NCBI GenBank assembly: GCA_030615855.1
Contig: JAUWYL010000006.1
Coordinates: 1-54,532 of the forward strand
Direction: 5' to 3'
DNA: 54,532 nucleotides
From: a bacterium
GTDB taxonomy: Bacteria; UBP18; UBA7526
Positions 19,224-49,975 of the stretch are shown here, piece after piece. The notes under the pieces were generated by a model. The model saw only the letters and a list, made by a program, of their open reading frames with translations, searched no databases and was not told the DNA's origin. Both the position numbers and the translations under genes were made by a program. Each line of letters opens with the position of its first letter. Position 1 is the first letter of the stretch.

Positions 19224-19868
19224 TCAGCATCTGTCTGCTATCTCTTGGGCATTCTCAAAGAGGGTTTTTATCTCCTTTTCAGAGAGCCCGGCGACCCTGG
19301 CTACCTTTAGCGCCTCTTTCTTGGTTATTAGGTCAGTGTAATGATGGGCATCGGTACAGAGGACCAGTTTGGCTCCGGTCTCTCTGGCCATCTTCGCCAC
19401 GTGGCCATTGGCTAATGAATGACCCTTTCTCGTGGAGATCTCCAGGCATATCCCCTTCTTCGCTGCTAAGAGGGCATCCTCTTTTGTAATGTGGCCTGGA
19501 TGGGTGAGGATATCGATATCACTCTCCAAGGCAGTACGGTTCGTTCCCGGCTCCACAGGCTCAACAATGGTCTCTCCGTGAACCAGGACTAACTTCGCTC
19601 CCAATCTCCTGGCTTCTTTTACTAAAGAAGGAATGAGTTTTGGAGGAACATGGCTTATCTCAATTCCCGAAATGGCCTTTATCTTTTTCACTTTGTTGAG
19701 ATCGTTACAGACTTTTACCACCCGGGGAATGATGAAATCCATGTTGGATGAATCGGCATGATCTGTGATGGCGATGGCCTTATATCCCTTTATCTCTGCC
19801 CGATGGATGAGTTCTGAGGGAATTAATGCTCCATCACTAAATAGGGTGTGGGTATGAAGATCGATCAT
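19224..19868 (-). CDS. PHP-domain phosphoesterase
   Basis: The 214-aa protein belongs to the PHP superfamily (histidinol phosphatase/DNA polymerase-associated phosphoesterases). The N terminus MIDLHTHTLFSDGALIPSEL carries the first metal ligands. Others follow in AITDHADSS near residue 37, LVHGETI near 93, DILTHPGHIT near 120 and LCTDAHHYTD near 175. The substrate is unknown; a histidinol phosphatase role is possible, but it is not next to his genes. GAGGAG stands seven bases before the ATG and directly follows the CCA end of the split tRNA, so the two are almost contiguous. Confidence 0.8.
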   Translation of the reverse strand: MIDLHTHTLFSDGALIPSELIHRAEIKGYKAIAITDHADSSNMDFIIPRVVKVCNDLNKVKKIKAISGIEISHVPPKLIPSLVKEARRLGAKLVLVHGETIVEPVEPGTNRTALESDIDILTHPGHITKEDALLAAKKGICLEISTRKGHSLANGHVAKMARETGAKLVLCTDAHHYTDLITKKEALKVARVAGLSEKEIKTLFENAQEIADRC

Positions 19869-19922
19869 AACTCCTCATGGCGCCCCCGGCAGGATTTTCA
19901 CCCCGCACCATAACTCATTCCG

Positions 19923-19996
19923 CCTCCCCGGAGCGATTCGAACGCTCGACCTTCCCCTTAGGAGGGGGACGCTCTGTCCAGCTGAGCTACGGGGAG
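19923..19996 (-). tRNA. tRNA-Arg (anticodon CCT)
   Basis: All arms fold: acceptor CTCCCCG/CGGGGAG, D stem GCTC/GAGC, anticodon stem TCCCC/GGGGA around CTCCTAA, T stem GAGCG/CGCTC around TTCGAAT, discriminator G. No CCA is encoded. It lies inside the insert that splits another tRNA-Arg and is flanked by the inverted pair CCCCGCACCAT (19901-19911) and ATGGTGCGGGG (20006-20016). Confidence 0.93.
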
Positions 19997-20014
19997 ATAT
20001 TGATAATGGTGCGG

Positions 20015-20058
20015 GGCCTGCCCCATACCAATCCCTTTGGGATGTTACGGGGCAGGCC
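20015..20058. repeat. GGCCTGCCCC hairpin element
   Basis: GGCCTGCCCC (20015-20024) is exactly inverted at 20049-20058, with an inner ATCCC/GGGAT pair. It forms one end of the insert in the split tRNA. A related GCCTGCCCCGT...ACGGGG hairpin lies inside the ligase gene near 43.46 kb. Confidence 0.8.
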
Positions 20059-20186
20059 TGCGACTTAGGAGGATCCTGCTCTATCCAACTGAGCTACGGG
20101 GGCGTCGCTCACTTCCGTTCGCTCCTCAGTGGGAGAACTTAAGAAAGAGATACGAATAAGAAAAAATTAATATGAGGATTTGCCCA

Positions 20187-20702
20187 CTAATATTGAATTA
20201 AGGAGAAAATTTTATAGGGTTTCAGTTTCTCTCGACCTTTTAGGAAGGTGAGTTCGATTAAGAAGGTGGCCTCTACAATCTCCCCTTTCAATTTCTTGAC
20301 AAGATCAATGGCTGCTTTGACCGTTCCTCCAGTGGCTAAGAGGTCATCGGCAATGAGCACCTGATCCCCAGGTTTTATAGCATCAATGTGGATCTCTAAG
20401 GCATCCTTTCCGTATTCTAATTCATACTCTGTCCGGTGTGTCTTATAAGGGAGCTTTCCTGCCTTTCTAATGGGAATAACCCCTGCTTTTAGTTTGTAGG
20501 CCAGGGCAGCGCCCATAATGAATCCTCTGGCCTCTACCCCCACAACGACATCTATCTTCTTGTTCTTGTAGCGGGCAGCCATTAAGTCAATGACCCTTCT
20601 AAAGGACGGCCCGTCCTTTAGTAAAGTAGTGATATCCTTAAAGACCACTCCCTTCTTGGGAAAGTCTTTAATATCTCTTATCAATCTCTTTGCTATCTTC
20701 AT
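20187..20702 (-). CDS. apt: Adenine phosphoribosyltransferase
   Basis: Apt salvages adenine to AMP using PRPP. The 171-aa protein starts [20 protein letters not shown], the family opening, and carries [19 protein letters not shown] near residue 55, the flexible-loop region with [15 protein letters not shown] near 75 and the PRPP motif [18 protein letters not shown] near 115. GGAGGA lies before the ATG. Upstream lies a long inverted repeat, and it stands alone between two tRNA genes. Confidence 0.95.
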
Positions 20703-20843: not shown

Positions 20844-20917
20844 TGGAGCGGGTGAAGGGAATCGAACCCTCGTATTCAGCTTGGGAAGCTGATATTCTAC
20901 CATTGAATCACACCCGC
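20844..20917 (-). tRNA. tRNA-Gly (anticodon CCC) with encoded CCA
   Basis: Acceptor GCGGGTG pairs with CACCCGC, the anticodon stem TCAGC pairs with GCTGA around TTCCCAA, and the T stem GAGGG pairs with CCCTT around TTCGATT. The discriminator is T and CCA is encoded at 20846-20844. Confidence 0.92.
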
Positions 20918-20941
20918 ATTACAAAGGTGCGGGGTGCCATT

Positions 20942-20961
20942 CCTGCCTGTCGACAGGCAGG
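20942..20961. repeat. Perfect 20-bp palindrome
   Basis: CCTGCCTGTCGACAGGCAGG equals its reverse complement and is embedded in a GGTGCGGGGTGCC repeat context after the tRNA-Gly gene. Similar palindromes are known to me as dispersed repeats of uncultured-bacterial genomes. Confidence 0.75.
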
Positions 20962-21064
20962 GAATCACGTCCGCCCAATAAAATATTATACTTCAATAGG
21001 CAAAAAAAGTCAACCCCGCTCCTTTTATTTTTAAAGCATCACTTTGTAGTAGAAAGGTGCGGGG

Positions 21065-49130: not shown

Positions 49131-49975
49131 AGTTCTTCCTCTAAGGCCCTTGCCATGACTTCAATCGGCGCTTCCCTGCTCGTCCAGATGGTGAAGGCCA
49201 GAGCCCCCTGATAGAGAAGCATCCCCATCCCGTTTAAGGTCTTTGCCCCTATCTCCTCTGCCTCGCTTAAGAGTCTGGTCTTTGGGGGATTATAGATTAG
49301 ATCATAAACCAAAAGATTTGGATGGAGAAGTTTGGGATCGATGGGTGGGGGATCATCTGGCTTTATTCCAACTGGAGTGGCATTGATCAGGATATCTGCC
49401 TCTCTAATCTCTTTTTCCAGCCCCTCTTCCCTGAGCGCTGTAACCTCCACATTAGAGATATTCTCTTCGATGTGAGAGGCGAGATCCTGAGCCTTATCAA
49501 AGACGATATCGGAAAGAGCGATCTTCTTCACTCCTTCCTTGGCAAGCTGGATGCTCACCGCTCGACCAGCACCTCCAGCACCGATGATCACTACCCTCTT
49601 GCCTTTGGGATCGGTCCCTGTCCCCTTTTTCAAGGAAATAACGAATCCCTCCCCATCTGTATTATATCCTATTAGTCTATTATCTCTAACCAAGATGGTG
49701 TTTACCGCCCCGGTGAGTTCCGCCTCCTCAGTTACCTCATCCAGATATTCGAGAACCTTCTCCTTGTAAGGCAGGGTGACATTCACCCCCACTATGCCGA
49801 GGGCGGGTAGAGCCTTCAGGGCCCCTTTTAGATTATTCTCTTCAACAGGGAAGGGAAGATAGATATAATTAAAATCCAGGTATTCGAAAGCCTTATTATG
49901 CATTGCGGGAGAAAGGGTATGTCCTATGGGATAACCAATGAGGCCCACTATCTTTGTCTCTCCATCGATCTTCAC
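49106..49975 (-). CDS. aroE: Shikimate dehydrogenase (NADP+)
   Basis: AroE reduces 3-dehydroshikimate to shikimate. The 289-aa protein shows VGLIGYPIGHTLSPAMHNKA near residue 8 (substrate loop), VNVTLPYKEKVLEYLDEV near 62 with the catalytic lysine, GAVNTILVRDNRLIGYNTDG near 86, the nucleotide motif VVIIGAGGAGRAVSIQLAKE near 124 and NATPVGIKPDD near 197. I chose the GTG at 49975 because AGGAGGT stands five bases before it; an ATG at 50002 would add nine residues. The last residues (LKTNKNTS) come from a repeat. Confidence 0.94.
   Translation of the reverse strand: MKIDGETKIVGLIGYPIGHTLSPAMHNKAFEYLDFNYIYLPFPVEENNLKGALKALPALGIVGVNVTLPYKEKVLEYLDEVTEEAELTGAVNTILVRDNRLIGYNTDGEGFVISLKKGTGTDPKGKRVVIIGAGGAGRAVSIQLAKEGVKKIALSDIVFDKAQDLASHIEENISNVEVTALREEGLEKEIREADILINATPVGIKPDDPPPIDPKLLHPNLLVYDLIYNPPKTRLLSEAEEIGAKTLNGMGMLLYQGALAFTIWTSREAPIEVMARALEEELKTNKNTS

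Follow-up and report, generated by a model that had tools for sequence, protein, structure and literature searches.

A Broken tRNA-Arg(CCT) Gene Interrupted by a Repeat-Bounded Unit with Its Own Intact tRNA-Arg(CCT), and a Possible Link to GIY-YIG Nucleases

Organization of the tRNA-Arg(CCT) Locus

The stretch of DNA analyzed here, referred to as the window, comprises 54,532 nucleotides (contig JAUWYL010000006.1) from a bacterium of the UBP18 lineage and contains a broken tRNA-Arg(CCT) gene in which an intact tRNA-Arg(CCT) gene is nested. All of the features described in this section lie on the minus strand. The locus is flanked by two syntenic markers, which we take to be an adenine phosphoribosyltransferase (apt)-like gene upstream (20187..20702) and a PHP-type hydrolase gene downstream (19224..19868; 92% identical in CSMAG_2758), the names being assigned from sequence. 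Comparisons were made among the genome of the window (G000), two genomes of the same genus (G001 and G002) and one of the same family (G003), all of which are incomplete metagenome assemblies.

The 5′ part of the outer gene (20057..20103) extends over 47 nt, from the GCCCCCG acceptor strand to the GCAGG T-stem strand, and matches the intact syntenic tRNA-Arg(CCT) of G003 (L012) at 89%. The 3′ part (19878..19900) holds a T-loop remnant, the CCTGC T-stem strand, the CGGGGGC acceptor strand and an encoded CCA, and the two halves pair through a 7-bp acceptor stem (GCCCCCG/CGGGGGC) and a T stem (GCAGG/CCTGC). Between them lies the tRNA-bearing unit (19901-20016), 116 nt in length and bounded by the inverted repeats CCCCGCACCAT on the left (20006..20016) and ATGGTGCGGGG on the right (19901..19911). 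The unit boundaries are identical in G001 and G002, being common to the three genomes, and the repeats fulfill what is expected of MITE-type termini. Within the unit, the inner tRNA-Arg(CCT) (19922..19996) is intact, as called by ARAGORN and supported by Rfam RF00005 with 63.6 bits. A GC-rich hairpin, GGCCTGCCCC...GGGGCAGGCC (20015..20058), separates the outer 5′ part from the unit as a secondary insert; a similar hairpin occurs on contig C27 of the same genome (89% over 36 nt), and the element is not present at the Arg-CCT locus of G001 or G002.

The first-pass annotation had described the outer halves, their acceptor and T stems, the CCA, the hairpin, the inverted pair and an inner tRNA-Arg with the same anticodon, and all of these held. 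Its claim that the 3′ strand of the anticodon stem had been lost held as well, as a pairwise alignment against the intact syntenic gene of G003 revealed the absence of 7 nt at this strand; compared with the same gene, the T loop of the outer gene is also broken.

A second case is located nearby. A tRNA-Gly 5′ fragment (20918..20974), consisting of GCGGACGTGATTC...AATGG, split by a small CCTGCCTGTCGACAGGCAGG hairpin and continued by CACCCCGCACCTTTGTAAT, is followed directly downstream by an intact tRNA-Gly(CCC) called by ARAGORN (20844..20917). This fragment is common to G000, G001 and G002, and is missing from G003, which has a plain tRNA-Gly at this place.

Filled and Empty Sites in Related Genomes

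In G003, an uninterrupted outer-type tRNA-Arg(CCT), GCCCCCGTAGCTCAGCTGGATAGAGCAGGGTCCTCCTAAGG...GGGGGCGCCA, lies between the apt and PHP hydrolase genes. At the matching locus, G001 and G002 carry a unit with identical ends and 97-98% identity to that of the window; they have kept the outer 3′ half and lost the outer 5′ half, with extra hairpins nested at the junction. An intact syntenic outer gene in one relative, together with the unit beside the outer 3′ half in two others, therefore indicates a real insertion rather than chance or misassembly. The T loop of an ancestral tRNA-Arg(CCT) received a 116-nt unit, bounded by inverted repeats, that carries a divergent, intact tRNA-Arg(CCT), and the outer gene decayed afterwards through a 7-nt deletion and the insertion of the second hairpin. 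Since the unit is found in G000-G002 and the site is empty in G003, the insertion dates between the split of G003 and that of the genus. The first-pass annotation had suggested searching relatives for an uninterrupted outer gene, and had accepted refutation if no genome possessed one; the gene of G003 means that this refutation did not occur.

According to the whole-genome tRNA list, the inner gene is the sole tRNA-Arg(CCT) found in G000, and it is 76.6% identical to the outer-type gene of G003. It is the replacement for the broken outer gene. In searches for its origin, no exact 25-nt match was found in viral contigs, and blastn against phage and plasmid sequences returned merely general tRNA-Arg similarity (about 76-87% among the rows listed).

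One alternative is that the outer halves remain functional, either as a tRNA that splices or folds in trans across a very large intron or as a processing scaffold for the inner tRNA. In its favor, the predicted fold of the 226-nt strand closes the outer acceptor and T stems and arranges the insert as two stems, one of them a stalk topped by the inner tRNA (z = -5.2); additionally, a real group I intron exists in a tRNA-Asn of G000. Against it, breaks affect both the anticodon stem and the T loop of the outer gene, the relatives have lost the outer 5′ half and kept the inner gene, and other outer copies are devoid of whole arms. When the outer halves were joined, ARAGORN under default settings called no tRNA, although it called both the inner gene and that of G003. 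The group I intron family RF00028 gave no match in 19500-20500, even at E<=1, and no other intron family matched there. With no RF00028 match, no tRNA from the joined halves and a damaged outer gene, the expectations for a group I intron or for a split or archaeal-type intron are not met at this locus. A spliced outer gene was rejected on account of the missing arms. A split or spliced tRNA, already regarded as less likely in the first-pass annotation, is now very unlikely given the broken anticodon arm and T loop, and the same holds for functional outer halves in general.

Recurrence in Other tRNA Genes of the Family

Sequences around the tRNA genes listed by a tRNA search in G000-G003 were surveyed for tRNA pieces after masking intact tRNAs, leaving tmRNA 3′ ends and one group I intron out of the fragment count. 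An intact tRNA of the same isotype and on the same strand was found at most 300 nt away from 26 of the 28 fragments, the two exceptions lying at contig ends, and the isotype match between fragment and nearest tRNA was reached in none of 10,000 permutations. At control tRNA loci of other bacteria, a single fragment was found near 25 intact tRNAs, and its isotype did not match.

Inspection of the loci by eye revealed 12 isoacceptors for which, across the four genomes, a broken tRNA encloses an intact one of its own kind: Arg-CCT, Arg-TCG, Leu-TAG, His and Pro-TGG in G000; Gly-TCC, Thr-CGT and Asn in G002; Cys and Glu-TTC in G001; and Val-TAC and Arg-CCG in G003. At Thr-CGT of G002 the nesting reaches three levels, with a Thr gene within a Thr gene that is itself within the remains of a third. 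For Gly-CCC, Leu-CAG (two consecutive), Thr-TGT and Ser-GGA, 5′ fragments alone were observed. In several cases, relatives preserve the outer type. For instance, His and Leu-TAG are filled in G000, with an intact outer-type gene at the matching place in G001/G002, and intact outer-type genes were also identified for Cys (G001 vs. G002), Val-TAC and Arg-CCG (G003 vs. G000/G002), Gly-TCC (G000/G002 vs. G003), Glu-TTC and Thr-CGT. The uninvaded alleles expected of a homing element are present for Arg-CCT, His, Leu-TAG, Cys, Val, Arg-CCG and Gly-TCC.

The position of the break varies among these genes. The split falls between anticodon positions 35 and 36 in Cys, Gly-TCC, Thr-CGT and Glu-TTC, in the T loop in Arg-CCT and in the D loop in Leu-TAG, and an entire arm is replaced in His (T arm) and Val (anticodon arm). 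The inner tRNAs are merely 73-85% identical to the outer types, and are therefore foreign or old rather than fresh copies.

Two candidates were discarded during this survey. The split tRNA-Asn of G000 is not a nested case, as it corresponds to a group I intron, and the Ala-like 3′ fragments of three genomes represent the 3′ ends of tmRNA rather than tRNA relics (checked in G000 and inferred for the two others). The intron itself occupies the anticodon loop of tRNA-Asn(GTT) in G000 (RF00028, 81.9 bits; L257 340-577, G000:C44, minus strand), and no second tRNA-Asn was found in that genome.

An assembly artefact or chance nesting could be invoked, as every genome is a metagenome assembly. Against this, the junctions are identical in independent assemblies, isotype-matched cases are many, the insert of the window has a predicted two-stem fold topped by the inner tRNA (z = -5.2) and the control loci display no isotype match, which all but excludes both possibilities. 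The first-pass annotation had proposed a repeat-bounded mobile unit that brought its own replacement tRNA, with a chance nested arrangement as the alternative: the former is supported by the filled and empty sites and by the recurrence in the family, and the latter failed, being excluded by recurrence and same-isotype matching.

Another explanation dispenses with a tRNA-carrying mobile unit, and supposes that tRNA genes were successively replaced by horizontal transfer and allele recombination, with hairpins later entering the dead copies. Recombinant states do exist, including the Glu-TTC swap in G002 and the inner Pro of G000, which equals the clean Pro of G001/G002. Nevertheless, crossovers yield hybrid or tandem genes, not an intact gene in the loop of another between complementary arms, and His and Leu-TAG come close to filled/empty pairs that differ only by the unit. 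This explanation is considered unlikely.

With respect to tRNA-Glu(TTC), the inner and outer types are swapped between genomes (L259 in G002, L286 in G001), and G000 (L242) possesses a clean inner-type gene. This suggests that recombination between nested copies may tidy a locus.

Unit Ends and Dispersed Repeats

Every tRNA unit opens with (C/T)CCCG, or a sequence near to it, and finishes with the complementary sequence, following the scheme (Y)CCCG...CGGG(R). The inner repeat parts differ between units yet pair within each, with a mean score of 9.9 for a unit's own arms versus 5.5 for swapped ones (0/20000 permutations); the unit boundaries and arms used for this test were chosen by eye.

Relatives without a tRNA, recognized by CCCCGCACCTTT ends, are dispersed in the genus, with 42 ends in G000, 35 in G001 and 63 in G002, most of them paired. 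The 42 CCCCGCACCWT ends of G000 compare with 0 for a reversed-pattern control. An exact 4-nt target duplication accompanies 27 of the 42 paired intergenic units, against a cross-pair expectation of 7, and the duplicated sequences are nearly all TGAA, TTCA, TTGA or TCAA. At the tRNA insertions inspected, no target duplication was found, the left flank in the window being disrupted by the second hairpin. The tRNA units may therefore have entered by a different route than their dispersed relatives.

Many CCCCGCACC elements lie exactly at ATGAA start codons, duplicating TGAA, and the element end provides a new GTG start (L205, L207-L211, L213 and similar loci), an arrangement that is strikingly frequent. 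A lone CCCCGCACC repeat end, preceded by TTCA and without a partner, is located at position 49975 of the window.

These repeats give rise to the main rival explanation, a MITE-like transposition that remains possible. Under this scenario, any DNA lying between CCCCG...CGGGG repeats can be mobilized by a transposase yet to be identified, a foreign tRNA became flanked by accident, the resulting composite entered tRNA genes, and only those cells survived in which the passenger matched the victim; a GIY-YIG nuclease gene would be one more passenger. The dispersed, mostly paired CCCCGCACCWT ends and the 4-nt duplications speak for it. Conversely, it predicts many tRNA-bearing units outside tRNA genes, of which none appeared among the tRNA loci inspected in the genus, and target duplications are missing at the tRNA units.

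GIY-YIG Nuclease Genes within the Genus

The proteins found in repeat-bounded units of the genus are GIY-YIG nucleases, transposase families not having been searched systematically. The unit of the window contains no nuclease gene, and neither do most nested units. Most informative is G002, in which the broken tRNA-Asn encloses, in order, a hairpin, an intact GIY-YIG gene, an intact divergent tRNA-Asn and a hairpin, after which comes the outer 3′ half; at tRNA-Ser(GGA) of the same genome the order is 5′ half, GIY-YIG gene, intact tRNA-Ser. The encoded proteins match PF01541 with up to 63.8 bits and share 11 invariant positions among five divergent members, including motif residues; their profile matches UPF0213 proteins, I-TevI and SLX1 among solved structures. 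A tblastn search of the phage collection with the GIY-YIG protein of the Asn unit returned no match.

GIY-YIG genes also occur in repeat-bounded units away from tRNAs, which favors the MITE-like alternative. One such unit in G000, of 374 nt, consists of a GIY-YIG gene between inverted repeats with no tRNA near (G000:C35:39164-39537; L193 1165-1538). A second kind, present in G000 and G002 (L308, L310), has CCCCCGCCCCCATTT ends and a TCAA duplication, the latter in L308. As a side observation, the GIY-YIG-only units resemble nuclease-bearing versions of the dispersed repeat.

Linkage of GIY-YIG Genes and tRNAs in Other Bacteria

The nuclease of the G002 tRNA-Asn unit was employed as a query against 386 varied genomes and gave hits in 116. 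An intact tRNA was located within 400 nt of 25 of the 29 best distinct GIY-YIG loci, compared with 3.1% of control windows (n = 1988; binomial 5e-34), and 21 of these 25 linked loci lie outside the family of the window. Among 40 lower-ranked loci, hand-picked down the ranking, 14 fulfilled the same condition (binomial 9e-12). The query was itself tRNA-linked, which biases the search toward linked relatives, and the control windows were unmatched for gene type.

Partial tRNAs lie near the intact tRNA at 23 loci, and 31 of 38 pieces have the same isotype as the nearest intact tRNA; most of the remaining pieces match the isotype of the intact tRNA across the nuclease gene. Typically, the GIY-YIG gene lies between a partial tRNA and an intact one sharing its isotype. 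Among the cleaner cases, L324 presents an intact Leu, the nuclease and a 3′ part at 98%, and L321 (Pro) and L339 (Gln) present a 5′ part to about position 55, the nuclease and the intact tRNA. Other loci accumulate several pieces, including L325 (two 5′ parts, an intact Ala, the nuclease and a 3′ part), L328 (four tandem tRNA-Asn 5′ parts at 1104-1331, an intact Asn, the nuclease and a 3′ end) and L327 (1915-2616, minus strand), in which tRNA-Ser 5′ parts, about seven in tandem and repeating at intervals near 112 nt, precede an intact tRNA-Ser and a GIY-YIG gene. Positions being approximate, the partial copies upstream mostly stop close to the T loop, and those downstream begin in the D arm or beyond. 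In these unrelated bacteria, a short GC-rich hairpin, such as TCCCGCCAGTGGCGGGA or TCCCGCC..GGCGGGA, is often present in the anticodon arm of the partial copies or in place of that arm (L321, L326, L328, L335, L340, L342, L366). Separately, at L355 (G178:C153), about 240 nt separate a GIY-YIG gene from a tRNA-Asn that harbors a group I intron (RF00028, 83.8 bits), a possible link between intron and element.

The link to GIY-YIG nucleases and its spread over many bacterial families go beyond the first-pass annotation. The MITE-like alternative leaves unexplained both the isotype matching and the presence of GIY-YIG genes beside split tRNAs in unrelated bacteria.

Comparison with Known Systems

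Homing nucleases of the free-standing type, elements that target tRNA genes and rescue drives all represent known kinds. One of the closest systems is SegB of phages T4/T6 (PMC13096335; Brok-Volchanskaya et al. 2008, cited there; PMC2988022), a GIY-YIG homing endonuclease that is free-standing and encoded in the phage tRNA region. Its gene likewise adjoins tRNA genes, and the enzyme cuts within such genes and favors the inheritance or amplification of the tRNA region. Unlike the present units, it sits between phage tRNA genes and not inside a broken host tRNA, has no nested same-isotype replacement, and belongs to phages rather than to a bacterial chromosome.

Integrative elements and prophages use tRNA genes as attachment sites. 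They resemble the units in targeting a tRNA gene and leaving one intact copy plus a displaced fragment, but they rely on an integrase and usually on a short identical 3′ piece that restores the gene, whereas the unit of the window has inverted repeats and a complete divergent tRNA. At 116 nt it is too small for an integrase gene, and its inner tRNA is a whole divergent gene, so the expectations for an integrase-type element are not met. Group I introns with homing endonucleases in tRNA anticodon loops (PMC3984707) are also mobile, endonuclease-driven insertions in tRNA genes, of which G000 has one in its tRNA-Asn; however, they splice out and the outer tRNA keeps working, whereas in the window the outer tRNA is dead and replaced.

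MITEs and REP-like palindromic elements are, like the units, short, dispersed and non-coding with inverted-repeat ends, and the relatives outside tRNA genes show a 4-nt duplication. The tRNA units differ from them in their tRNA cargo, their same-isotype tRNA target, the absence of target duplication and repeats that vary yet remain self-complementary. Engineered cleave-and-rescue and home-and-rescue gene drives, built with Cas9 in insects (PMC7968924), share the logic of destroying an essential gene and supplying a recoded copy; the arrangement in the window is instead natural and bacterial, and cutting is undemonstrated. Finally, homing-endonuclease insertions in fungal mitochondria bring a duplicate gene end. 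They too supply coding sequence in place of the portion of the target that was displaced, but they concern protein genes and mitochondria, and the replacement is partial.

The literature searched, which excluded preprints and most subscription journals, contained no report of a tRNA nested in a same-isotype tRNA, nor of bacterial GIY-YIG genes with partial tRNAs on their flanks.

A Proposed Home-and-Rescue Mechanism

Insertion, replacement, recurrence, isotype matching and linkage to nuclease genes are shown. Beyond them, we lean, with moderate confidence, toward the reading that the unit of the window is a nuclease-less derivative of a tRNA-invading GIY-YIG element equipped with its own replacement tRNA, in which cutting and homing are inferred without cleavage data. 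According to this proposal, the GIY-YIG nuclease would cut an uninvaded tRNA gene, in the T loop in the case of Arg-CCT, and repair of the break, by a route that is itself inferred, would install the unit. The recoded tRNA of the unit would escape the nuclease, an immunity that is also inferred, keep the cell alive and become essential (‘home and rescue’). In the window, the nuclease may have been lost or may be supplied in trans, descent from nuclease-bearing units being again an inference.

Phage SegB offers a precedent, as this GIY-YIG enzyme cuts inside tRNA genes with the preferred motif RAWTSGAAC (PMC13096335). By our own reading, this motif corresponds, in reverse complement, to GTTYGAATC, a sequence of the T loop, which is also the loop that received the insertion in the window.

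Certain observations restrain the GIY-YIG element reading, beginning with the absence of a nuclease gene from the unit of the window and from most nested units. A single enzyme specificity cannot explain all cases because the split points differ (T loop, D loop, anticodon between 35 and 36, replaced anticodon arm). The nuclease could be cargo of another mover, as GIY-YIG genes also reside in non-tRNA elements of the genome. Moreover, simple homing does not predict the 4-nt target duplications of the intergenic repeat relatives, which counts against this reading.

Implications

A bolder interpretation, which could prove right or wrong with comparable ease, is that these loci represent a widespread bacterial class of selfish elements, in which a GIY-YIG nuclease would cut single-copy tRNA genes and a recoded tRNA would be inserted. 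Such a class, whose cutting step is inferred, would constitute a natural home-and-rescue drive that repeatedly overwrites host tRNA genes and leaves nested fossils behind.

If this is true, it would explain the partial and tandem tRNA copies found in genome annotations and give a role to the little-studied small GIY-YIG (UPF0213-like) genes. It would also provide a natural counterpart to engineered rescue drives and a source of horizontally acquired tRNA genes. In addition, tRNA genes, usually considered stable core genes, would be overwritten by selfish elements in many uncultured bacteria.
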